DNA of 24,607 bases from positions 1-24,607 of the IMG/VR virus record IMGVR_UViG_3300042549_003139; one strand, given 5' to 3'. The notes under the pieces are model-generated. The model did not search any database, was not told the DNA's origin, and saw only the letters and a list, made by a program, of their open reading frames with translations. A program made the position numbers and the translations under genes. Shown here piece after piece: positions 1 through 19,520 of the stretch (position 1 is the first letter of the stretch; every line of letters starts with the position of its first letter). Origin of the DNA: a virus.

Positions 1-1973
1 CATCATTTACACCAAGAATAACAAATTTGGAAAGTAAGAGTGCATCGGTTGACATTAGTATTACAAACATTAACTCATTCACTGCAAGTAATAGTAATGA
101 ATCATTAAACTTAAAAACAGGAAGTTATGCAACAACGGGTTCTAATACATTTTTTGGAACTCAAACATATAGCGGAAGTGTTTATATTGCAAATGACTTA
201 ATAGTACAAGGAAGTTCTTCAATTCAATACATAAGTGCATCATCGGTTTCAATTGGTACTAACATTGTCCAACTTAATACTGCCAATCCATCAGTTAGAT
301 TTGCTGGACTGACTATAATAGATAGTGGATCAGTTGGAGGTTCTGGTTCGTTTTTATACGATTCGGTACAAGATGAATTCATATTTGTACATAGAGGAAA
401 CGGAACGAACATAACATCATCCCACTTTGTATTAGGGCCGGAAACATATGATAGTTTAGGTAATGAAACATATTTGACTTCTAATATAATTCCAAAGGGT
501 ACTGGAAAAGAACACTTAGTGGATTCATGTATTTTTGACAATGGTGTTACTACTTGTATTAAGAATAATTTAGTAGGAACAGGAACAATATCTGGAACTA
601 ATATTTACGCTTCAACTGTTTCTTGTTCACCGGTAGGTTGTTTTACTACTCTATGTACGGAATATCTTTATCCCTATAATATTTCAATGGGAAACACTTT
701 CATACGAGCTAATGGAAATAAACTTGGTATAGGTACTGGAAATCCATTGGGGGTATTATCAATTACCGGTGGACAAAATTCTCTTTCGTCATTAGCAACC
801 TACTCATCAATAGAACCATTGGGAATTTTTAATATGTTTTATATTAATTCTGGTACATATCCTTTTTATTTAGATATTGCTGCAATTGGTGACACATTGT
901 TAACTAATGGTGGAAGTAATATTAGATTTTTAACTCATTGTGGTACTGCTAACGCAACACCGGTAGAGAGAATGAGAATTGACAATTGTGGACGTGTTGG
1001 TATAGGAACTACTACTGCAATTGGTAGATTAACAATTTCACAAGATACTGATTGTTTGAATTCTGGTTTATCAATAAATTCAACAAGTAATTATGTTCCC
1101 AAATCAGCTATACACATAAATTCATTTGGAACTGGTACTGGAGCTGGTATTACTTTTGAAAATAAATCTATAAATACTGCTTGGATGGGCCATAGAGGTG
1201 GAAGTAGTACTAATTTACATTTTGAGCAAGAAAATGGTGATTTTGTATTTGCAGCAGGAACTTATGCGCAAATAGTAGATCATACAACTCCAACCCTTAT
1301 GACTATAAAGAAAAATGGTAATGTGAGTATCGGTACACAAACACCTAATGAAAAATTAGATGTGAATGGTGCAATACAAGTTAGAGGAGAAAGTTTAGGA
1401 TATGGTACAACACAATGTGTTGGTATGCTTGATTGGTACGCTGGTAATACTAGATTTTTAGCCTTCGGAGGTAACGGATCAACATATGGAGGATTTAATT
1501 GGTACGCATCAAGACAAAACAATTCCGGTGGTAGATCTGTAATGAATATATTACCAACGGGGCAAGTTACAAAACCATTTCAACCATACGCAGCAGTGGG
1601 AATAACAGGATCATACTCAACTACTGGCCAAATAATAGTTTGGAATCAAGTACATACTAATAATGGTAATCATTATAATTCTTCAACGGGACTATTTACT
1701 GTACCAGTTGCGGGGCACTATTTGGTAAGTATAATGGTTATGACCGATGGAGTAGATCAAACATTGGATATAAATTTAAGAATAAATGGAACCGGAACAA
1801 ATGCATTAGTACCATATCAATCAATCAACGGAGGTGTATATAACCAAGTATCAGGTATGACAATACTAGCATTAGCCGCTAATGATACAATTGGATTTGC
1901 ATTAAATAGTGGAAGTGTCTATGGATCATCGGGAGGAAGGCATAGCTCAGTTACTTTTGCTTTATTAGGATAA
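1..1973 (+). CDS. Tail fibre/adhesin paralogue 1 with C1q-like C-terminus (5' end outside window)
   Basis: Probable receptor-binding fibre. The frame (codons from base 3) stays open to the left edge, and residues before the TTG at 27 still align with the two paralogues downstream (…NLESKSASVDIS versus NLETKSSSIDIS), so the true start lies upstream. Numbering from base 27: a shared N-terminal region runs to about residue 150. Three rungs of the type VGIGTxxP (about residues 232, 322 and 431, the last followed by EKLDVNG) are typical of trimeric beta-structured phage fibres. The last ~130 residues (about 518-648) have the C1q/TNF-like pattern, with NxGxHYNxxTGLFTVPVAGHY, a central LRING and a closing SSVTFALLG. 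The centre is rich in cysteine. An 87-residue gene follows at once. Fibre identity is an inference from the beta-repeat architecture and the C1q-like end; the receptor is unknown. Confidence 0.75.
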   Translation, partial: SFTPRITNLESKSASVDISITNINSFTASNSNESLNLKTGSYATTGSNTFFGTQTYSGSVYIANDLIVQGSSSIQYISASSVSIGTNIVQLNTANPSVRFAGLTIIDSGSVGGSGSFLYDSVQDEFIFVHRGNGTNITSSHFVLGPETYDSLGNETYLTSNIIPKGTGKEHLVDSCIFDNGVTTCIKNNLVGTGTISGTNIYASTVSCSPVGCFTTLCTEYLYPYNISMGNTFIRANGNKLGIGTGNPLGVLSITGGQNSLSSLATYSSIEPLGIFNMFYINSGTYPFYLDIAAIGDTLLTNGGSNIRFLTHCGTANATPVERMRIDNCGRVGIGTTTAIGRLTISQDTDCLNSGLSINSTSNYVPKSAIHINSFGTGTGAGITFENKSINTAWMGHRGGSSTNLHFEQENGDFVFAAGTYAQIVDHTTPTLMTIKKNGNVSIGTQTPNEKLDVNGAIQVRGESLGYGTTQCVGMLDWYAGNTRFLAFGGNGSTYGGFNWYASRQNNSGGRSVMNILPTGQVTKPFQPYAAVGITGSYSTTGQIIVWNQVHTNNGNHYNSSTGLFTVPVAGHYLVSIMVMTDGVDQTLDINLRINGTGTNALVPYQSINGGVYNQVSGMTILALAANDTIGFALNSGSVYGSSGGRHSSVTFALLG

Positions 1974-1992
1974 AATATAAAAACAATAATAT

Positions 1993-2256
1993 ATGAATTA
2001 TACAATCACACTTACGGAAACAGAAAAACTAGCAATGGAATATACTGCTTATGACCCACAAGAATGGGTAGAAAATGCAATGAAAGAAAGAGCAAGAATT
2101 GCAATAGACGATATTGTAAAACTTGCAGTAGAAAAATATTTAGAATTGAGTATAACTATACCTGGTTCTAAAGATGAAATAGTTGCAGACGCTTATGCTA
2201 GAAATTGGGTACAAACTGCAAAGTATAAGACGGATAATTATACACCTTCTTTGTAG
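1993..2256 (+). CDS. Small fibre-associated protein, copy 1 (87 aa)
   Basis: Unrecognised 87-residue protein, mostly helical in appearance, with a conserved MNYTITLTETEKLAMEY start and a WVENAMKERAR segment. It starts 20 bases after the stop of the C1q-ended fibre. The copy at 4265 follows the second C1q-ended fibre in the same way, with 65 of 87 residues identical in an ungapped hand alignment. The C-terminal third varies most. No signal peptide or membrane segment is visible. The strict pairing with a C1q-type fibre suggests a fibre-assembly chaperone or accessory subunit, but this is inference from position only. The leader is A-rich without a Shine-Dalgarno motif. Confidence 0.8.
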   Translation: MNYTITLTETEKLAMEYTAYDPQEWVENAMKERARIAIDDIVKLAVEKYLELSITIPGSKDEIVADAYARNWVQTAKYKTDNYTPSL

Positions 2257-2282
2257 GATAAAAATATTATAAAAAAAGAAAA

Positions 2283-4250
2283 ATGGGAAAAACAAGGAAC
2301 ACCGGTAAGTTAGCAACACAGATACAATTTGACAATAGTAATAATCTTGTCATAGGTACTTCTGCATCATCTTCATTTAATACAAGTGGAAGTGTAAATG
2401 CAATAGGAGGTATTACTGGTTCTATATTTGGAATTGGAAATCCTACAAGTTTTTCTTCATCTATATCGTCAAATTTAGTTAGTATACAAAGTGTTACTGC
2501 ATCTAATATTGCACGCTTGTCAAATTTGGAAACAAAGAGTAGTAGTATTGACATAAGTGTTAGTAGTATTAATACATTCACATCAAGTAATAGTAATACA
2601 TCTCTAAACTTATTAACTAGTTCTTTAGCAACAACTGGAAGTAATTCATTCTTTGGAACACAAGTATTTTCAGGAAGTGTTTATATTGCAAATGATTTAA
2701 TAGTACAAGGTTCGTCAAGCATACAATACATTTCTGCATCATCTGTGTCAATTGGAACAAATATAGTCCAATTAAATACTGCAACACCTTCGGTTAGATA
2801 TGCAGGAGTAAGTGTACAAGATTCTGGAAGTAGTGCAGGTGTAACTGGAAGTATATTATGGGATTCACTTTGTAATCGTTGGATATATAGTAATCCTTCA
2901 ACAATTGGATACTCTGGTGGAATGTTAATCTCCGGGCCTAGAAACGCCGCTGGTTTGGGTAACGAACAGGGAACTACTAGCTGTATGTTATTAGTAGGAC
3001 AAGGCGGAGATCATTTGACTAGTTCTTTGGTTTATCATGATACAAATTGCACTAACTTTTACTCTAACGCTTTATATATAAGTTCTAGTGGAAACGTAGG
3101 AATTGGAACTTGTAATCCACTTGCAAAATTTGTAGTTACCACTACTTCAAATGTAAATCTTGAAGTTAGAAATGGAGCAGATTATGGAGTAACTGGTGTT
3201 GCTATTGATTCTAGAAACGATACTCGTAGTACAAGAAACGCAATGATTGTTTATGGAAGTCCTATTGTATTAGGCGGAGGTAATGTAGGAATTGGAAAAA
3301 CAAATCCTATAGCGGCGTTAGATATCTCAGGTTCTCATACTGGAGGTTACGGAATACTAAATATAACAAGTAACGATAGTGCTATTATATCTTTAGATTC
3401 AACAACGAGCTCTGATGTAAGAATTAGATTTAAACAACTAGGCGTAGATAGGTGGTTTGCTGGAATGAACACTAATGATAGTTGGGAATTAAGAGTGGCG
3501 GATAATACGCCTAGATTTGTAGTTACACAAGATGGTAGAGTAGGAATAGGAACAAGTAATCCTCCTAGTACTCAATTTGCTGTTGTAGCAGATTGGATTA
3601 GTGGACAAGCGACAGTAAAAACGTACCCTATAACAACTGGAGGCGCCTCTGGATATGGTATTTTTGATAGTAATGGCACTACTAGAAGAGCATATTTAGC
3701 TGCAAATTCAGAACAGGTAGAAGTATGGGCACAACAAAATACTCCAATGGTTCTTGCTACTAACGATATTATAAGAATGAAAATAGATACAAGCGGACGT
3801 ATTACTACGCCTTATCAACCATCATTCTATGCTTATGGTGTTGGTGGTGGAAGCTTTGCTTCTGGAAATTATTGGATATTTCCGTCTACCCAACATAATA
3901 GAGGAAGTCATTATAATGCATCAAATGGTGTATTTACAGCTCCTGTAGCAGGTACGTATTTCTTTGCTTTTGGTAATTTAATGGGAACGTCTGCAACTGT
4001 TTATAGATGGTATTTAAGAGTTAATAATTCTTCCACAGGAGCAGGACCCAGTATTCAATTAAGAATGGATCGCGGTGGGATGTCTACATCAGCGTATGGA
4101 TGGAGTCATTCAAAAACAGCTGTAGTAAATTTAGCTGCAGGAGATACGGTTAGAATATTCTCATCAGCAGATGATAGCTCTAGTCTATTTCCAGGAGAAA
4201 ACAACGCAACAGAAGAATATCCTCACTTTATGGGATATTTAATAGGATAA
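2283..4250 (+). CDS. Tail fibre/adhesin paralogue 2 with C1q-like C-terminus
   Basis: Complete 655-residue fibre-like protein. The N-terminus (MGKTRNTGKLATQIQFD) opens a Ser/Thr/Gly-rich region of about 200 residues shared with the neighbouring paralogues, including SSSIQYISASSVSIGTNIV and a DSLCNRWIYSNPSTIGYSGG block nearly identical in paralogue 3. Fibre rungs NVGIGTCNP, NVGIGKTNP and RVGIGTSNP lie near residues 271, 334 and 418. The last ~140 residues resemble a C1q-like globular domain (HYNASNGVFTAPVAGTYFF, then LAAGDTVRIF and HFMGYLIG). Known fibres of this type attach to the host cell surface; C1q-like tips are plausible receptor or glycan binders. The start is supported by the matching MGK start and the identical leader (AAAAAGAAAA before ATG) of paralogue 3. 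The 87-residue gene follows. Confidence 0.78.
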   Translation: MGKTRNTGKLATQIQFDNSNNLVIGTSASSSFNTSGSVNAIGGITGSIFGIGNPTSFSSSISSNLVSIQSVTASNIARLSNLETKSSSIDISVSSINTFTSSNSNTSLNLLTSSLATTGSNSFFGTQVFSGSVYIANDLIVQGSSSIQYISASSVSIGTNIVQLNTATPSVRYAGVSVQDSGSSAGVTGSILWDSLCNRWIYSNPSTIGYSGGMLISGPRNAAGLGNEQGTTSCMLLVGQGGDHLTSSLVYHDTNCTNFYSNALYISSSGNVGIGTCNPLAKFVVTTTSNVNLEVRNGADYGVTGVAIDSRNDTRSTRNAMIVYGSPIVLGGGNVGIGKTNPIAALDISGSHTGGYGILNITSNDSAIISLDSTTSSDVRIRFKQLGVDRWFAGMNTNDSWELRVADNTPRFVVTQDGRVGIGTSNPPSTQFAVVADWISGQATVKTYPITTGGASGYGIFDSNGTTRRAYLAANSEQVEVWAQQNTPMVLATNDIIRMKIDTSGRITTPYQPSFYAYGVGGGSFASGNYWIFPSTQHNRGSHYNASNGVFTAPVAGTYFFAFGNLMGTSATVYRWYLRVNNSSTGAGPSIQLRMDRGGMSTSAYGWSHSKTAVVNLAAGDTVRIFSSADDSSSLFPGENNATEEYPHFMGYLIG

Positions 4251-4264
4251 AAAATAAATAAATT

Positions 4265-4528
4265 ATGAATTATACAATCACACTTACAGAAACAGAAAAA
4301 TTAGCAATGGAATATATTGCTTACGATCCACAAGATTGGGTTGAAAACGCTATGAAAGAAAGAGCAAGATTAGCAATAGAAGATATCGTTAAAATTGCAG
4401 TAGATAAATTTTTAGAAGCAGAACAAACAATTCCAGGATCTAGAGAAGAGATCGTAGCTGCAGCTTACGAAAATAATTGGATAGAAACCGCAAAAGACAG
4501 AACAGATAATTCTGAGTCTTCTTTATAA
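4265..4528 (+). CDS. Small fibre-associated protein, copy 2 (87 aa)
   Basis: Second copy of the 87-residue protein at 1993. The first 17 residues are identical, as is the WVENAMKERAR segment; most other changes are conservative (I/L, D/E, K/R), which implies that both copies are under selection. It begins 14 bases after the stop of fibre paralogue 2, with leader AAATAAATAAATT before ATG. No catalytic motif is recognised. The third fibre, which lacks a C1q-like end, has no such partner, so the protein may act on C1q-type tips. Function unknown. Confidence 0.8.
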   Translation: MNYTITLTETEKLAMEYIAYDPQDWVENAMKERARLAIEDIVKIAVDKFLEAEQTIPGSREEIVAAAYENNWIETAKDRTDNSESSL

Positions 4529-4532
4529 AAAA

Positions 4533-4541
4533 ATATTTATA
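4533..4541 (+). promoter_or_regulatory. Late-type promoter motif
   Basis: Exact ATATTTATA, ending only 11 bases before the ATG of fibre paralogue 3 at 4553, in the gap after the 87-residue gene. A related ATATTATAA precedes the fibre at 2283. Confidence 0.45.
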
Positions 4542-4552
4542 CAAAAAGAAAA

Positions 4553-6544
4553 ATGGGAAAGAATAGAAAGCAGGCAAGTTTGACAAATGTAGTACAATAC
4601 GATAGTAATTTTAATCTATCTATTGGAACTTCACCATCATCATCATTTAATTCAAGTGGTAGTATAATAGCTGCATCCGGATTTACTGGATCATTATCTG
4701 GGTCCGTTTTTGGATTAGGTGATACTGTTTCATTTAGTTCGTCCGTTTCATCTGACTTAATAAATTTAGAAACTAAGTCTGCAAGCGTTGACATTTCTAT
4801 TAGTAGTATTAATACATTTACAGCAAGTAATGCAAATACATCATTAAACTTATTAACAGGTTCTTTAGCAACAACCGGTTCAAACACATTCTTTGGTACA
4901 CAAGTATTTTCAGGAAGTGTTTTTATAGCAACCGACTTAATCGTTCAAGGTAGTTCATCAATTCAATATATAAGTGCATCATCGGTTTCAATTGGGACAA
5001 ACATAGTAAATCTAAACACAGCAACACCTTCGGTTAGATTTGCGGGTATTTCAGTACAAGATAGTGGAAGCTCTGCCGGAATAACTGGTTCTATGTTATG
5101 GGATAGCTTATGTAATAGATGGATATATAGTAACCCATCAACTATTGGTTATTCTGGAGGTTTATTAATGTCAGGACCAAGAGCAGCAACATTGGGAACT
5201 GAAACTACTTTGACTTGTAACTATATTGCAAAGAGTGGTGGAGGTGATCATCTTTATGATTCTTGCATTCAAGATGTAAGTGGATCAGTAACAATTGGTG
5301 GTACACTATGTACGTCGGGTGTTGTATGTGGAGCATCTGGAATATTTTCATCAACTTCTTATAGTAACTTATATCTCGATGGAGCCAATGCAACAGGATG
5401 GGGTAATAATATAGCATTTAGAAGTCAAGGAACTGATTTTGGATATGTGGGTAGTATTGGTTCTTTGGTAGGTAATACTACAAAAGATATGGCAATATGG
5501 TCTACAACTGGAAATGGATTTAGTGTATATACAAATGGTAATAATCAACGATTAAATATAACATGTGCAGGATTAGCTATATTTACAAATAGTGTACAAT
5601 CAACCGATTATAGGTATACAAATACTGGTTATTTAACATATGATACTGCAAATACAGGAACAGAATGTTTAGTTATTCGTAAGAATGGAACAGCAGTATT
5701 AACTTTTAATTCCAACTCATCCGCAACATTTGCAAATACAGTTTGTACAAACGCAGGATTAATTTCAAATACCCTAACTATTTCTTGTACCTCAGGAGAT
5801 GATAGAGCCATATATATGTCTCTCAACTGTTCTTATAATTATAACTCAGGTGCAGCAAATACTATTGCTAGAAGTGTAAATAGTCTTAAATTTTTGTGGT
5901 ATAATAATTGCTGGGAAATTGGAGCAACTAGAGGAGATGATACAGCAATACAATCGTTAGTATTTGCTAGACAAGGAAGTACCTATTTAGCAATGACTTG
6001 TCATGGTATAGCTAATTTTACTTGTCAGATTTGTGTACCAAGTTTAAGAGTACAATCCGGTTTTGCAGATTTAACTTTATGTGGAAGTAATACTTCATCA
6101 CCTCATCTAGGAGGAACTTTCTCAATTACTACAAACCAAGATGGAAACGGAAGAACTATAATAGGTAACGCTGCTGTTAATAGAGCAATGTATTTGGAAG
6201 CAGGTGGTAATGTTACTTTTAACTGTGCTGTAAGTGTAGGAGGTACCTTAAATATTCCTAATTGGTATTTTGGTGGACGTTACTGTGTTGTTGGTACTTC
6301 ATTTGCCATAATCGGCCCTGCTCAAACATATAGTGGTTTACATTTTGTTTCATTTACTCACTCAAACGCAGGAAACACAGGGTACGCACTAATGATGAGT
6401 GCTTGGTATCCTGGACAATTAACTATAATAAGTCAATATGATCCAACCGGATTAGGTGTTTGTTTTAGAATGAACGGCAACTATATGGAAATGAAAACAT
6501 CTTCAGGAACAGTAAATGCAACTATATTGAATGTAACAATATAA
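4553..6544 (+). CDS. Tail fibre/adhesin paralogue 3 with unrelated, cysteine-rich C-terminal part
   Basis: 663-residue protein. The first ~220 residues are closely related to paralogue 2 (FGTQVFSGSVFIATDLIVQG; LWDSLCNRWIYSNPSTIG), after which similarity ends. The rest lacks both the VGIGTxxP rungs and the C1q-like end. Instead it has repeated short strands such as SATFANTVC, ANFTCQICV and VTFNCAVSVGGTL, consistent with a beta-helical fibre shaft, and a closing ~100-residue segment beginning WYFGGRYCVVG that I do not recognise. About 18 cysteines occur, far more than in the sheath (two in 743 residues). No 87-residue partner follows. It has a late-type promoter motif immediately upstream. Most likely an alternative receptor-binding fibre; the function is inferred from paralogy. 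Confidence 0.75.
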   Translation: MGKNRKQASLTNVVQYDSNFNLSIGTSPSSSFNSSGSIIAASGFTGSLSGSVFGLGDTVSFSSSVSSDLINLETKSASVDISISSINTFTASNANTSLNLLTGSLATTGSNTFFGTQVFSGSVFIATDLIVQGSSSIQYISASSVSIGTNIVNLNTATPSVRFAGISVQDSGSSAGITGSMLWDSLCNRWIYSNPSTIGYSGGLLMSGPRAATLGTETTLTCNYIAKSGGGDHLYDSCIQDVSGSVTIGGTLCTSGVVCGASGIFSSTSYSNLYLDGANATGWGNNIAFRSQGTDFGYVGSIGSLVGNTTKDMAIWSTTGNGFSVYTNGNNQRLNITCAGLAIFTNSVQSTDYRYTNTGYLTYDTANTGTECLVIRKNGTAVLTFNSNSSATFANTVCTNAGLISNTLTISCTSGDDRAIYMSLNCSYNYNSGAANTIARSVNSLKFLWYNNCWEIGATRGDDTAIQSLVFARQGSTYLAMTCHGIANFTCQICVPSLRVQSGFADLTLCGSNTSSPHLGGTFSITTNQDGNGRTIIGNAAVNRAMYLEAGGNVTFNCAVSVGGTLNIPNWYFGGRYCVVGTSFAIIGPAQTYSGLHFVSFTHSNAGNTGYALMMSAWYPGQLTIISQYDPTGLGVCFRMNGNYMEMKTSSGTVNATILNVTI

Positions 6545-6575
6545 AAACTATACTTTTCAAAAAAATTTACAATAT

Positions 6576-6584
6576 ATATTTATA
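6576..6584 (+). promoter_or_regulatory. Late-type promoter motif
   Basis: Exact ATATTTATA within TATATATTTATATA, 32 bases before the ATG at 6617; no upstream TTTG at the expected distance. Confidence 0.5.
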
Positions 6585-6616
6585 TACACAAACAAAAACA
6601 AAACTAAAATTGAATT

Positions 6617-7075
6617 ATGGAAAAAATTAGTCTTAAGTTACATGAGTTCTTAACATTAGAAACAGAATTATTCGGTGTTAAAAACCAACAAACAGGAGAA
6701 GTTACATCAAAAGGTTTATTAAACGAAAAACTTTCATTAGTGTCTAAATTCTGGTTAAACGAATTAGGAAAGAAAGTAACATCTGAAAAAGAAAGTATTG
6801 AAAAACTAAGAGAAGAATTAATCAAAAAGTTAGGTACAGAAGAAGAAGGACAAATATTCATCAAAATGTACGATGAAGTAAAAGATGAAGAAGGAAACAT
6901 TGTTTCTAGATCATTAACTTCAAACTTTATTGAATTTAATCAAGAGTTTGAAAAATTATTATCAGAAGAAAAAGAATTAGAGTACAGAGCATTTGATTTA
7001 TCAGAATTATCAAATGTAGAAACGGAAGGAAACTTAAATATATTCTTCAAATTGATTAAAGCACCAACTGAATAG
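6617..7075 (+). CDS. Small acidic coiled hypothetical protein (152 aa)
   Basis: Not firmly recognised. A charged, helical protein with a lysine/glutamate-rich central part (KESIEKLREELIKKLGTEEE), an EFNQEFEKLLSEEKELE segment and a C-terminal LSELSNVE...LNIFFKL. This order (helical N-terminus, a KLIEKYG-like helix end, E/D-rich turn with DEEGN, EFN..F..LL..E, then a short strand-rich tail) is reminiscent of the phage family DUF1617, but I cannot confirm that by eye. It sits between the fibre cluster and the tail sheath, behind its own late-type promoter, and a hairpin follows it. It could be a tail-assembly or accessory protein. No signal peptide or membrane segment is seen. Confidence 0.7.
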   Translation: MEKISLKLHEFLTLETELFGVKNQQTGEVTSKGLLNEKLSLVSKFWLNELGKKVTSEKESIEKLREELIKKLGTEEEGQIFIKMYDEVKDEEGNIVSRSLTSNFIEFNQEFEKLLSEEKELEYRAFDLSELSNVETEGNLNIFFKLIKAPTE

Positions 7076-7106
7076 TAAAAATACTATCTCATTAAAAATT
7101 AATATA

Positions 7107-7142
7107 AAAAGTCCAATTCATAATTTAATGTTTTGGACTTTT
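7107..7142 (+). terminator. Hairpin terminator after the 152-aa gene
   Basis: AAAAGTCCAA (7107-7116) pairs with TTGGACTTTT (7133-7142): a 10-base-pair stem with a 16-base loop, followed by AATTT. The T tract is short, so termination may be partial; a late-type motif begins 6 bases on (7148). Confidence 0.6.
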
Positions 7143-7147
7143 AATTT

Positions 7148-7156
7148 ATATTTATA
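7148..7156 (+). promoter_or_regulatory. Late-type promoter motif for the tail sheath
   Basis: Exact ATATTTATA, 35 bases before the ATG at 7192, just after the terminator hairpin. Confidence 0.5.
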
Positions 7157-7191
7157 TTGAGAATTAATAAATTTAAATTAAAGCATATAAA

Positions 7192-9423
7192 ATGGCAGAG
7201 AAAATAGTATCACCAGGCGTATTTACAAAAGAAAACGACCTTTCATTTTTACAACAAGGTGTGGCTGACATCGGAGCAGCATTCATTGGCCCTTTCAAAG
7301 AAGGCCCATTAGTTCCAACAATCGTTAATTCACAAGCTGAGTTTGAAACTCTTTTTGGTAATGTAGACGGAACATATTATACAGAATTGGCTGTTCAAAA
7401 TTATTTAAGAGAAGCAGGAACTGCAACTATTTGTAGAGTGGCTGGAGTTGATGGATATACTGAAACGGCTCCTTTGTTATTAACAGTAGCTTCAGGATCA
7501 GTAACTGCATCGGTTGGTATTTTATTTAATACTACATCTGGTTCAAATGCAGGTTTTGCAGGAACAACTGTAACTCCAAACGGAAATGGTGATTTCTTAT
7601 TATCAGGTTCAAATGCTGGTTTATTATCTGCATCTTTGGATTCAAGTGATACAAATGACATTGAAGCTGTATTTGGAACATCTGCATATGGTAATAAAAA
7701 GCCTTATGTATATGGTTTCTTTAAAAATCATAGTGTAACTTTTAATAGTAATGCAACCGCATCTGTAAATGTTTTGGGTAATCAATTATTTACAATGGAT
7801 GCACAAGAAGCTTTAACTCCAATGATTCAATCACAATTGATTAGTGGTGAAAGATTTAACTTATTCCAATTTGAAACATTAGGTGCTGGAAACAGAGCAA
7901 ACACTAAAATTAAAATTGGTATTACAAATATTAAAGCAGCGGGTTCAATAAACGGAACAGATTACGGAACATTTACAGTTGTAGTAAGAGAATTTGACGA
8001 TACTAATAAGAAAAAAGTAGTAGTAGAAACTTTCTCTAACGTAAACTTAGACCCTAACTCTCCAAATTATATCAGTAGAGTAATCGGTGATAGAAAATTA
8101 TCAATAGACTCAGTAGGTAAAATAACTGAATCTGGTGATTGGGTAAACAATTCAAAATATGTTAGAATTGTAAACTTAAACGAAAATTCTCCAATTCAGG
8201 CAGTTCCATTTGGCCACACAGCATATCAATTACCAATATCTGCATCAACTCAATTATCTTCTCAAATACCTGCAGTAACTTTCGTAAGTTCTTCTGTAAC
8301 TGTATATGGTGGTATTGATTTAGATGGTAACACAGATAACTCAATCTATTTAAGACCAATTCCAGTAGGTGCAACATCAGGTGCTAATACAGCATTTGGT
8401 TTGGATTCATCAAATGGTGGTTCGTTAACAGTAGGTTCAACTTCAGCACAATTCGTTGTAGCATTCCAAGAAGGTTTTGATGGTATGAACCCATCAACTC
8501 CAATCTACAAAGGAGCTGATATAACTGCAGGTAACTCACAAGGATTTGATTTATCAACATCTGCATCAAGTGGTTCAGTAGCTTATGGTAAATTAGTATC
8601 TGCTTTATCTAACGCTGATGAATTTGATATCAATATGATAGTTACTCCAGGTGTTGTAAGAAGATTACACCCTTCAGTAGTAACTGATGTTTTGGATATG
8701 GTAGAAGAAAGAAATGATTGTTTCTATATTATGGATTCAACTTCTCAAAATGATTCTATTACACAAGTAACAACTCAATCTGACGCAGTAGATTCAAATA
8801 TGGCAGCAACTTACTATCCTTGGGTTAAGACAATTGATATCAACACTAATAAATTGATTTCAGTTCCACCTTCAGTATTATTACCTGGTGTATTCGCAGC
8901 AAACGATAGAGTAGCAGCAGAATGGTTCGCACCAGCCGGTTTAAATAGAGGTGGATTAGTAGGAGCGGTTAGTGTATTGAATAGATTAACTCAATCAGAA
9001 AAAGATTCATTATACGAAGCAAAAGTAAACCCAATCGTACAATTCCCAGGACAAGGTATTGTAGTATTCGGACAAAAAACATTACAAGATAAACCATCTG
9101 CATTAGATAGAATCAACGTAAGAAGATTATTATTGACTGTTAGAAAGTATATCGCATCTACTTCAAGATATTTAGTATTTGAACAAAATACTTCTGAAAC
9201 AAGAAATAGATTCTTAAATATCGTTAACCCTTATTTAGAATCAATCCAACAAAGACAAGGTTTGTACGCATTCCGTGTTGTAATGGATGAAACTAATAAT
9301 ACACCAGATGTAATTGATAGAAACATTATGAAAGGAGCTATCTTTTTACAACCAACTAAGACTGCTGAATTCATTCAAATTGATTTCAACATCTTACCAA
9401 CTGGAGCAGCATTTAACGGATAA
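7192..9423 (+). CDS. gp18: Contractile tail sheath protein
   Basis: Forms the contractile tube around the tail tube. The N-terminus has the usual sheath start (SPGVFTKENDLS, then GAAFIGPFKEGP, LFGNVDGTYYTELAVQNYLREAG, ATICRVAG). The C-terminal domain, from about residue 640, has the classic RINVRRLLLTVRKYI, TSRYLVFEQNTSETRNRFLNIVNPYLE and FRVVMDETNNTPDVIDRN blocks and ends with strand EFIQIDFNILPTGAAF, the sheath-to-sheath interlocking region. At 743 residues it is slightly longer than T4 gp18 (659); the extra length lies in the middle surface region (about residues 95-450, rich in Ser, Gly and Asn). Arg codons are almost all AGA. The next gene is the tail tube, as in T4. A late-type promoter motif and a terminator hairpin lie just upstream. 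Confidence 0.96.
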   Translation: MAEKIVSPGVFTKENDLSFLQQGVADIGAAFIGPFKEGPLVPTIVNSQAEFETLFGNVDGTYYTELAVQNYLREAGTATICRVAGVDGYTETAPLLLTVASGSVTASVGILFNTTSGSNAGFAGTTVTPNGNGDFLLSGSNAGLLSASLDSSDTNDIEAVFGTSAYGNKKPYVYGFFKNHSVTFNSNATASVNVLGNQLFTMDAQEALTPMIQSQLISGERFNLFQFETLGAGNRANTKIKIGITNIKAAGSINGTDYGTFTVVVREFDDTNKKKVVVETFSNVNLDPNSPNYISRVIGDRKLSIDSVGKITESGDWVNNSKYVRIVNLNENSPIQAVPFGHTAYQLPISASTQLSSQIPAVTFVSSSVTVYGGIDLDGNTDNSIYLRPIPVGATSGANTAFGLDSSNGGSLTVGSTSAQFVVAFQEGFDGMNPSTPIYKGADITAGNSQGFDLSTSASSGSVAYGKLVSALSNADEFDINMIVTPGVVRRLHPSVVTDVLDMVEERNDCFYIMDSTSQNDSITQVTTQSDAVDSNMAATYYPWVKTIDINTNKLISVPPSVLLPGVFAANDRVAAEWFAPAGLNRGGLVGAVSVLNRLTQSEKDSLYEAKVNPIVQFPGQGIVVFGQKTLQDKPSALDRINVRRLLLTVRKYIASTSRYLVFEQNTSETRNRFLNIVNPYLESIQQRQGLYAFRVVMDETNNTPDVIDRNIMKGAIFLQPTKTAEFIQIDFNILPTGAAFNG

Positions 9424-18248: not shown

Positions 18249-19520
18249 ATGAACCTAATTGAAGATAAACAATCCTTACAATCATTTTTAGGAGGTAATG
18301 TAAATATTGACCTCATTGTTCCTGTATGGAGTTCTCATAAAGCACATCCATTAGGAAGTCGTTTGTCTTTTATATATTTTAGACAAAGTGACGGAAGTGA
18401 TGGTATAATTAATTTCAATCACATAGATGCAAAGAAATTAGACAAATTTGACATATCTAAGTTAGTCCATGTCAATACATTAGTTTTAGACAATAGGTAT
18501 TTAAACACCATAGGATTGGATTATGAGTGGGTTTATTTTGAAGAGTATGGGAAACCATTTATCTTTAATGAGGTCGTAGAATCGGTTTATAAGGGGTATA
18601 GAAACGACTTTAAAGAGTTGAATGATTGTGTACCTTTAATGAAGTGGTATGAAATCTTAAAGACAATCCCAAATATCAGTACAAGAAACGAATGGAATAG
18701 AAAATATACATCAGCAATCCAAACATTGGGAAGGTTGGAAGGGGCTGGGGTAAAAGTCGTTAGAGAAAAATTTATTGATAGTTTTAACTTCAATGAACAA
18801 TACCTTCGTAAAAACGATATAGTGTACACGCAGTATAACCCATATACCACAACGGGCAGACCTTCAAATCGTCACCTTAATGTTAACTACTCTGCATTGA
18901 ATAAGTCCGATGGTACGAGAGAAATGTTTATTAGTCGTCATCCACACGGAACCTTAATTCAATTTGACTATGAGTCGTATCACATTCGTTTGATTGCGAA
19001 AATGGTTGGGTATGAATTTCCAACGGGTACTACGGCTCACCAACATCTTGCAAACCTTTACCGATGTGATTTGGAGACGGCAAAGAAAATAACCTTTACA
19101 TACCTTTATGGGGGATTAGATGAGAATGCTCGTAAAATACCATTCTTTCAAAAAGTAGATGAATACATTAAGGGATTATACCAAAGGTTCGTCATTTCGG
19201 GAAAACTTACGACACTCTTATATAAAAGAGAAATACCATTTGATAGAATTGAATCTCCTAACGAACAAAAGGTATTCAACTACTTATTACAATCATTAGA
19301 AACTGAAATCAATTATATGAAGATTGGTGAGGTATTGGAGTATTTGGACGGGAGAATGTCAAAAATGATACTTTATACCTATGATGCCTTTCTTATAGAC
19401 ACACATCCTATTGAAAGAGAAAATATCTTAAACGACATTAGAGAGATAATGGAGAAGGGTGGTTTCCCAGTTAAAATAGAAGAAGGAGAGAATTATAACA
19501 ATTTAGAGGTTATAAGTTAA
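18249..19520 (+). CDS. Compact family-A DNA polymerase
   Basis: 423 residues, with the polymerase core only. Landmarks of E. coli Pol I are in order: TTGRPSN (201-207, for TGRLSS), motif A DYESYHIRLIA (240-250, catalytic Asp240), motif B AKKITFTYLYGG (278-289), where Lys279, Phe283 and Tyr287-Gly288 sit at the Pol I Lys758, Phe762 and Tyr766-Gly positions, a LLQSLETEI segment for the QG...AD helix (346-354), and motif C LYTYDAFLID (375-384, Asp379). Deviations: the motif-B Arg754 position is Leu, and the HDE of motif C is YDA. The region between motifs A and B is about 20 residues shorter than in Pol I. The N-terminal ~130 residues show no DxE exonuclease motif. Arg codons are 7 CGN of 22, unlike the AGA-rich neighbours. 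It replicates DNA or fills gaps; whether a second protein supplies proofreading is unseen. Confidence 0.88.
   Translation: MNLIEDKQSLQSFLGGNVNIDLIVPVWSSHKAHPLGSRLSFIYFRQSDGSDGIINFNHIDAKKLDKFDISKLVHVNTLVLDNRYLNTIGLDYEWVYFEEYGKPFIFNEVVESVYKGYRNDFKELNDCVPLMKWYEILKTIPNISTRNEWNRKYTSAIQTLGRLEGAGVKVVREKFIDSFNFNEQYLRKNDIVYTQYNPYTTTGRPSNRHLNVNYSALNKSDGTREMFISRHPHGTLIQFDYESYHIRLIAKMVGYEFPTGTTAHQHLANLYRCDLETAKKITFTYLYGGLDENARKIPFFQKVDEYIKGLYQRFVISGKLTTLLYKREIPFDRIESPNEQKVFNYLLQSLETEINYMKIGEVLEYLDGRMSKMILYTYDAFLIDTHPIERENILNDIREIMEKGGFPVKIEEGENYNNLEVIS

Follow-up and report, generated by a model that had tools for sequence, protein, structure and literature searches.

The virus record IMGVR_UViG_3300042549_003139 of IMG/VR, a whole viral contig of 24,607 bases (the window), begins with three adjacent fibre genes, two of which end in C1q domains and are directly followed by a small open reading frame (ORF) of 87 amino acids (aa). 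Comparison of this locus with its relatives suggests that it is a slot-and-tip array. Each fibre in such an array would consist of a leader, a joint, a shaft and an exchangeable tip, a partner gene linked to the tip fold would follow, and the 87-aa partner of the C1q tips would serve as an assembly factor. We consider this explanation, which is derived from sequence comparisons and structure prediction, to be probable, though by no means secure. The two 87-aa ORFs of the window (copy 1 at positions 1993 to 2256, copy 2 at 4265 to 4528) had been missed in the initial annotation of this DNA and are the most interesting element of the locus. That annotation is confirmed in part: it was sound in outline, and the exchange of tips that it envisaged is supported, but it misplaced the anchor of the fibres.

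The ORF list places fibre 1 at positions 3 to 1973, fibre 2 at 2283 to 4250 and fibre 3 at 4553 to 6544, all on the plus strand, like the parts of these genes and the genes between them. The contig starts inside fibre 1, and therefore the 5' end of this gene is cut and its N-terminus lies outside the window. In the Pfam search, C1q domains (PF00386, curated cut-off 23.7 bits) were found in fibre 1 (positions 1614 to 1925, 48.1 bits, E 1.6e-12) and in fibre 2 (positions 3873 to 4244, 33.2 bits, E 7e-8, also matched by C1q chains of the PDB), and fibre 3 was without a C1q match, in agreement with the two C1q ends and one unrelated end described initially. The unrelated end had also been called cysteine-rich. 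Fibre 3 does contain 18 cysteines, but nine are in the middle, eight in the last third and only three in the last 150 residues, so that the label is a loose one.

The region shared by the three fibres had been taken for a nearly identical N-terminus, but it is an internal block of about 125 residues. It occupies positions 24 to 386 in fibre 1 (residues 8-128 of the visible part), 2523 to 2897 in fibre 2 (residues 81-205) and 4763 to 5137 in fibre 3 (residues 71-195). The blocks of fibres 2 and 3 are 89% identical, and fibre 1 carries a copy that ends differently. The sharing goes far beyond chance: a repeat search of window positions 1 to 7200 returned a direct repeat of 300 nucleotides (nt) in three copies with 74-78% DNA identity, and a self-match reached E 6e-157. 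The motif IGTNIV is present in all three fibres, as had been stated, but the second motif of the initial annotation, DSLCNRWIYSNP, is found in fibres 2 and 3 only, its counterpart in fibre 1 being DSVQDEFIFVHR. Beyond the block the fibre proteins differ, and fibres 2 and 3 also have dissimilar true N-termini, with an identity of only 53%.

Each fibre opens with a leader before the block. The leader comprises 80 residues in fibre 2 (MGKTRNTG type, positions 2283 to 2522) and 70 residues in fibre 3 (MGKNRKQA type, positions 4553 to 4762). The fibre 2 leader matched the second-last fibre gene of the related contig L003 with 98% aa identity over 100 residues and identity at 44 of 44 fourfold sites; the leader as delimited here is 99% identical in aa and 96-100% in DNA to the L003 gene at 10001. 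For the fibre 3 leader and the last fibre gene of L003, aa identity was 95% over 80 residues and 36 of 38 fourfold sites were the same (96% aa identity to the same slot of L003 and L004 for the delimited leader). The tail sheath genes of the window and L003 are 80% identical, with 173 of 256 fourfold sites the same; comparison of fourfold-site identity between leader and sheath gave Fisher values of 2e-7 for fibre 2 and 2e-4 for fibre 3. The high silent-site identity of the leaders points to a recent exchange of leader stretches between phages.

Corresponding leaders were found in the same order in a more distant relative, the 209-kb contig L174, with 64-72% DNA identity to the window. The order MRQHNLRV, MGKTRNTG, MGKNR[KQ]Q, orf152 is common to L003 and L174, and the array of the window closes with MGKNR[KQ]Q and orf152. 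The block of fibre 1 matches that of the L003 gene at 6315 with 97% identity, from which a MRQHNLRV-type leader is predicted for fibre 1. This conserved order, together with the leader identity at matching slots, indicates that the N-termini are fixed by slot. Other leaders are in use in the more distant clade L176-L179. Arrays in relatives can be longer, with at least six block-bearing fibre genes on a 32.6-kb contig and eight on a 28-kb contig, and more fibre arrays are present on the 209-kb contig.

The block does not follow the slots. The fibre 3 block is nearest to the fibre 2 block, the last-slot block of L003 is nearest to a block of contig L005 (93%), and blocks are often closer to those of other slots than to those of their own slot. 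L003 and L004 have sheath genes with 97.2% and tube genes with 99.8% DNA identity, yet their last-slot blocks are only 64.9% identical. In these comparisons the block behaves like a joint: it varies without regard to slot, and its copies pass from one slot to another. A role of the shared region as a common attachment platform, as had been proposed, is not borne out by this pattern, and the slot-specific leader is most likely the better candidate for attachment to the virion. The Pfam search found no domain in the leaders or the shared block, and a PDB sequence search with the block gave no match.

Tips, in contrast to leaders, are replaced. The slot directly upstream of orf152 carries nine tip classes (clusters) among 15 contigs, and the fold class at one slot changes between contigs. 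The same leader order is combined with differing tips in L003 and L174, consistent with the earlier expectation that C-termini exchange and N-termini stay fixed, and the same three C-termini in fixed order without exchange were not seen among the relatives. For a quantitative comparison, 63 C1q fibres with partner, 50 of them with a complete 5' end, were combined into 1953 pairs. Leaders were at least 80% identical in 34 pairs, and in 29 of these the tips were less than 40% identical; the median tip identity of the 34 pairs was 29%, close to the 27% that the full set of 1953 pairs gave as background, and the median partner identity was 84%.

The borders of the replaced stretch could be located. 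DNA homology resumes at a median of -7 nt relative to the fibre stop codon (120 pairs). Contigs L154 and L155 are 90% identical over 351 nt at the fibre start, have no detectable match in the middle and tip, and are 92% identical over 521 nt on the 3' side, beginning 14 nt before the stop. Between the window and L003, homology resumes directly after the last fibre stop codon and continues through orf152 (positions 6617 to 7075), making the stretch from 6545 to 7075, intergenic DNA included, the constant right-hand flank of the array. Compared with the window, L005 is a three-part mosaic, with a block and partner like those of fibre 1 and a tip closer to that of fibre 2. For the fibre 3 tip, a pattern scan gave no viral relative, another search gave one 35% match (L169), and PDB sequences gave only antibody-like chance matches with E 0.07 and worse.

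With respect to the agent of replacement, a diversity-generating retroelement was considered and rejected, as the reverse transcriptase domain RVT_1 was found in none of seven relative records (fragments included) and no template-like repeat in window positions 1 to 7200. The same region contained one pair of inverted repeats of 20 nt with 85% identity; no search for site-specific recombinases was made. The lack of reverse transcriptase in all seven records and of convincing inverted repeats leaves fibre switching inside one genome without support. The recombinational choice of tips suggested by the initial annotation fits as exchange between phages. A RecA-type recombinase is encoded in six of the seven records (five matches above cut-off), which fits homologous recombination and proves nothing. 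That the tips bind receptors is suggested by their position and by a proposal made for the C1q proteins of marine phages (PMC3909814).

The 87-aa ORFs of the window are 75% identical to each other and begin 20 nt downstream of fibre 1 and 15 nt downstream of fibre 2; fibre 3 has no such ORF behind it. Partner relatives were collected from the loci of three viral scans, one genome scan and four phage records; one of the scans contributed the best 80 of 336 loci encoding such a relative. Duplicates were removed by identical end sequence, and ORFs with too little flanking sequence were left out. Of the 120 partner ORF hits, 65 were distinct, and 62 of these lay directly behind a C1q tip (61 of 64 when a truncated copy in L001 of the window ORF is left out), mostly 4-37 nt downstream of the fibre. 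In the same loci, a C1q tip preceded only 4 of 248 control ORFs with 70-130 aa and 27 of 779 larger ones. The sub-loci L001 and L002 of the window were omitted from the C1q tally and the controls, and hence the window's own C1q tips are not counted there. As the C1q profile had been seeded with the window tips and iterated on the first locus set, the assignment was rechecked with Pfam alone, which identified C1q in 57 of 63 upstream ends and the tail-assembly chaperone PF16778 in two; 59 of the 63 ends matched phrog_15750.

The linkage to C1q is not a property of one leader or one group of phages. Fifteen leader families without detectable mutual similarity carry the pair of C1q and 87-aa gene, and a second partner copy in one relative record is likewise behind a C1q tip. 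At slot -2, the window has a C1q tip with partner; L003 and L174 have other tips there and no partner. Among 50,697 records, the only phage isolates with a partner were S-SRM01 (two records) and Limnohabitans phage DC33. The record of the latter (PQ492659.1, L084 in our set), which is 39 kb long and includes large fibre genes, has a taxonomy line that assigns it to Inoviridae and looks wrong. In bacterial genomes, one partner locus was found, on a metagenome-assembled Chloroflexota contig that is possibly phage DNA. The sequence type of the C1q domain was considered as the determinant of partner presence and rejected. On a quick C1q tree of 95 tips (63 with partner), 18 changes were needed, compared with a mean of 26.8 and a minimum of 20 in 200 shuffles; this is some clustering with heavy mixing, and thus only a weak effect of C1q type.

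The partner does not covary with the tip. Partners were at least 85% identical in 28 pairs, and the tips of 24 of these were below 40%; tips were at least 75% identical in five pairs, none of which had partners below 70%. Co-evolution of partner and tip was rejected in a mirror test, in which the observed rho of 0.129 did not stand out from values obtained by random permutation (maximum 0.259 in 1000), and also in leader-matched pairs (rho 0.03). In the largest leader family (25 of 26 genes, 100 pairs), leader and partner were correlated with rho 0.73, which none of 1000 permutations attained; for leader and tip, rho was 0.00, a value reached in 447 of 1000.

An AlphaFold2 model of the partner, built from 38 sequences, had a predicted local distance difference test (pLDDT) score of 92 and consisted of four helices and a short extended N-terminus, without a predicted beta domain. 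The family had no sequence match in Pfam or the PDB and one weak PHROG match, and a Foldseek search with the model returned nothing at E 0.001 in the PDB or BFVD. The best VIA-align rows (basic helix-loop-helix and histone folds, Z at most 4.0) show helix arrangements that are widespread, and we did not count them as relatives. A literature search, which covered few subscription papers, yielded no description of C1q tips paired with such a small gene. The 87-aa partner family appears to be new, and the swapping of tips itself varies a kind that is already known. The partner remains the same when the C1q domain is replaced, and it is missing from the corresponding slot of relatives that have a non-C1q tip there, which suggests a service to the C1q fold as such. 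As far as sequences can tell, it is most likely a generic folding or trimer-assembly factor for this fold and not a contributor to receptor specificity.

These findings can be combined into a mechanism. The leader of 70-100 residues, conserved by position, would dock the fibre in the virion, and the shared block would act as a joint that tolerates crossovers. A long shaft would follow, and then the exchangeable, putatively receptor-binding tip. Homologous recombination between coinfecting phages, with one crossover in the leader or joint and the other from the stop codon on, would replace the tip. Tips of one fold would bring their partner gene along, the 87-aa helical protein in the case of C1q and an oxygenase-like protein of 190 aa in the case of another class. 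The C1q partner would act at the level of the fold, probably by aiding folding or trimerisation, and then be released. As a tentative but plausible extension, the 87-aa proteins may be a new phage-wide family of C1q assembly factors that are specific for the fold and not for the sequence; their constancy would permit any C1q-for-C1q swap in a single leader-partner exchange, and a change to another fold would need an exchange of the partner, too.

Several observations weigh against this proposal. C1q tips do not need the partner, as many lack it (24 of 83 in contigs found via the partner, and six of seven in contigs found via the block), and three of the 65 partners do not follow a C1q tip; in two of these cases a PF16778 tail-assembly chaperone precedes them. 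An AlphaFold2 model of the shared block (mean pLDDT 65) was too poor for comparison with a gp10-like fold. The compared sequence pairs are not independent. In several pairs, 3' homology extends past the partner into the next gene, and so the partner may simply belong to a conserved flank. It could then be a hitch-hiker on the right-hand homology arm for tip exchange, without a functional link to C1q, and the resumption of homology at the fibre stop, across the ORF and sometimes beyond it, as well as the tracking of the leader by partner identity, would be expected. A neutral arm, however, would have no preference for one fold, and the C1q linkage extends over 15 leader families and phages as unlike as S-SRM01 and DC33, while slot -2 lacks the partner where L003 and L174 have other tips. 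We regard a pure hitch-hiker as unlikely, though worth keeping in mind. Finally, all evidence comes from metagenomic contigs, which may be chimeric at repeats, and a block repeated within and between genomes is a classic site of assembly errors, where the leaders of one phage could be joined to the tips of another. Such chimeras would hardly account for slot order and tip diversity that recur across separate contigs (one of them 209 kb long), for the recurrence of a tip class together with its partner gene, or for C1q pairs drawn from many contigs, and we give them only a small chance.

The partner might also remain in the virion. The gp38 protein of T2-type phages is an example of an adhesin subunit borne on the tip, and the position directly behind the fibre is where a terminal cap or adhesin subunit that shares in receptor binding would be encoded. 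A specificity subunit should vary, however, and the 87-aa protein, which is small and mostly helical, remains conserved at matching leaders while tips are replaced; we therefore consider this role quite unlikely. A very small chance is left for tips that diverge rapidly in place, by hypermutation or strong selection, instead of being replaced. C1q domains are indeed highly variable in marine phages (PMC3909814), but tip identity at near-identical leaders does not differ from background, the fold class itself switches at a slot, and neither a reverse transcriptase (seven relative records) nor template repeats (window positions 1 to 7200) were found. Overall, we prefer exchangeable tips on slot-specific leaders, with a fold-linked assembly factor.

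C1q is not the only tip class with a companion gene. Tip A, a non-C1q tip of L003, L004, L166, L178 and, at 33% identity, L188, is followed after 17-19 nt by a gene of about 190 aa (L003 14681-15256, L004 4617-5192, L166 1607-2182, L178 1009-1581 and L188 3266-3829). Its match to the 2-oxoglutarate-Fe(II) oxygenase family PF13640 (25.8 bits) is below the cut-off of 27. In three contigs the gene is followed by orf152 and in two by a glycosyltransferase-like gene, which are different slots, and it travels together with tip A; a relative in L189 does not adjoin this tip. The protein may modify the tip or its receptor. Glycosyltransferase-like genes were seen within the fibre arrays of L003 (1276-2175, weak Pfam match, E 0.06), L177 (3398-4312) and L178 (1656-2555). 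A 124-aa gene (MAHYAFLDEN...) without Pfam match at 9572-9946 of L178 is behind yet another non-C1q tip and is possibly one more tip-specific partner. Array fibres at 3690-5777 and 6315-9998 of L003 and at 6828-9197 of L177, which have no 87-aa partner behind them, end in charged, helical-looking stretches, presumably similar to those of self-cleaving fibre chaperone domains.

In the window, the three fibre genes are followed by orf152 and by genes for tail sheath, tail tube and a T4-type baseplate protein; a long ORF occupies the tape-measure position, and further genes lie beyond. Flavobacterium phage immuto and Microcystis phage Mel-JY01 have sheath proteins with 48% and 47% identity, respectively, to that of the window, and the array belongs to a contractile-tailed phage. 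The orf152 product, encoded between array and sheath gene, is 89-95% identical among phages with only 66-82% sheath identity; orf152 is an unusually conserved gene and has no assigned function. Just after the tail genes, a 423-aa ORF (18249-19520) matches family A DNA polymerases (PF00476, E 1.6e-9) and looks short for a full polymerase.

Such tips largely determine which hosts environmental phages can infect, and most of them are unannotated. If C1q tips do fold with the help of a single generic partner, the 87-aa gene would serve as a marker of receptor-binding tips in metagenomic data, and the generic partner would explain how tips can be replaced without loss of assembly. The order of slot, leader, joint and tip provides a testable picture of how a phage could keep several tips and renew them singly with the attachment ends intact.

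The array resembles the T-even gp37/gp38 system in that tips are exchanged between conserved flanks and a tip-partner gene is located directly downstream; for that system of variable tip and downstream partner, tip exchange was reportedly described by Tetart and coworkers in 1998 (cited in PMC7468147 and PMC11414711). The gp38 protein usually moves with its tip. The C1q partner, in contrast, tracks the leader and is not replaced together with the tip, and the array has several slots with leaders of their own and tips of C1q and other folds. A Pfam match named for gp37 or gp38 was not obtained at E 1, and PHROG matches were to other tail-fibre or unknown families.

In the multi-tailspike locus of Ackermannviridae, receptor-binding proteins are clustered, their conserved 5' ends have gene-specific roles, and exchange and recombination of the tailspikes have been demonstrated experimentally (PMC11414711). 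Adjacent, putatively receptor-binding genes with gene-specific N-termini are found here as well; the Ackermannviridae proteins are tailspikes assembled into a branched complex via gp10-like XD domains (PMC11414711), whereas the array has C1q and other tip folds. In marine and cryoconite phages, C1q tips vary and are exchanged between near-identical phages (PMC3909814, PMC7468147), and Fe(II)-dependent oxygenases are listed in such C1q islands (PMC3909814). Neither slots nor a constant small partner gene figure in the accessible portions of these accounts. The fibre-chaperone pairs gp26/gp27 of V22 and gp8/gp9 of A5 are common to distantly related phages, and like the 87-aa gene their second member is encoded behind the fibre and shared between distant phages; V22 gp27 is a 21.8 kDa protein with DUF4376 (PMC7289586, PMC10579305), and the 87-aa family has about 10 kDa and no Pfam family.

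A small gene directly downstream of the tip is a chaperone-like feature, known from Tfa, Pam3 gp25 and PF16778, which the 87-aa family shares; Pfam, the PDB, Foldseek and VIA-align did not connect it with any known chaperone by sequence or fold. The TNF-like domain represents the superfold of C1q. Pam3 fibre gp24 carries such a domain, and its downstream chaperone gp25 contains a four-helix trimerisation domain and, in addition, a variable beta-sandwich that grips the fibre (PMC9608196); the 87-aa family has no equivalent of this beta-sandwich. With a distal TNF-like domain and a helical product of the downstream gene, the gp24/gp25 pair is the nearest experimental precedent for the C1q tips and their partner (PMC9608196).

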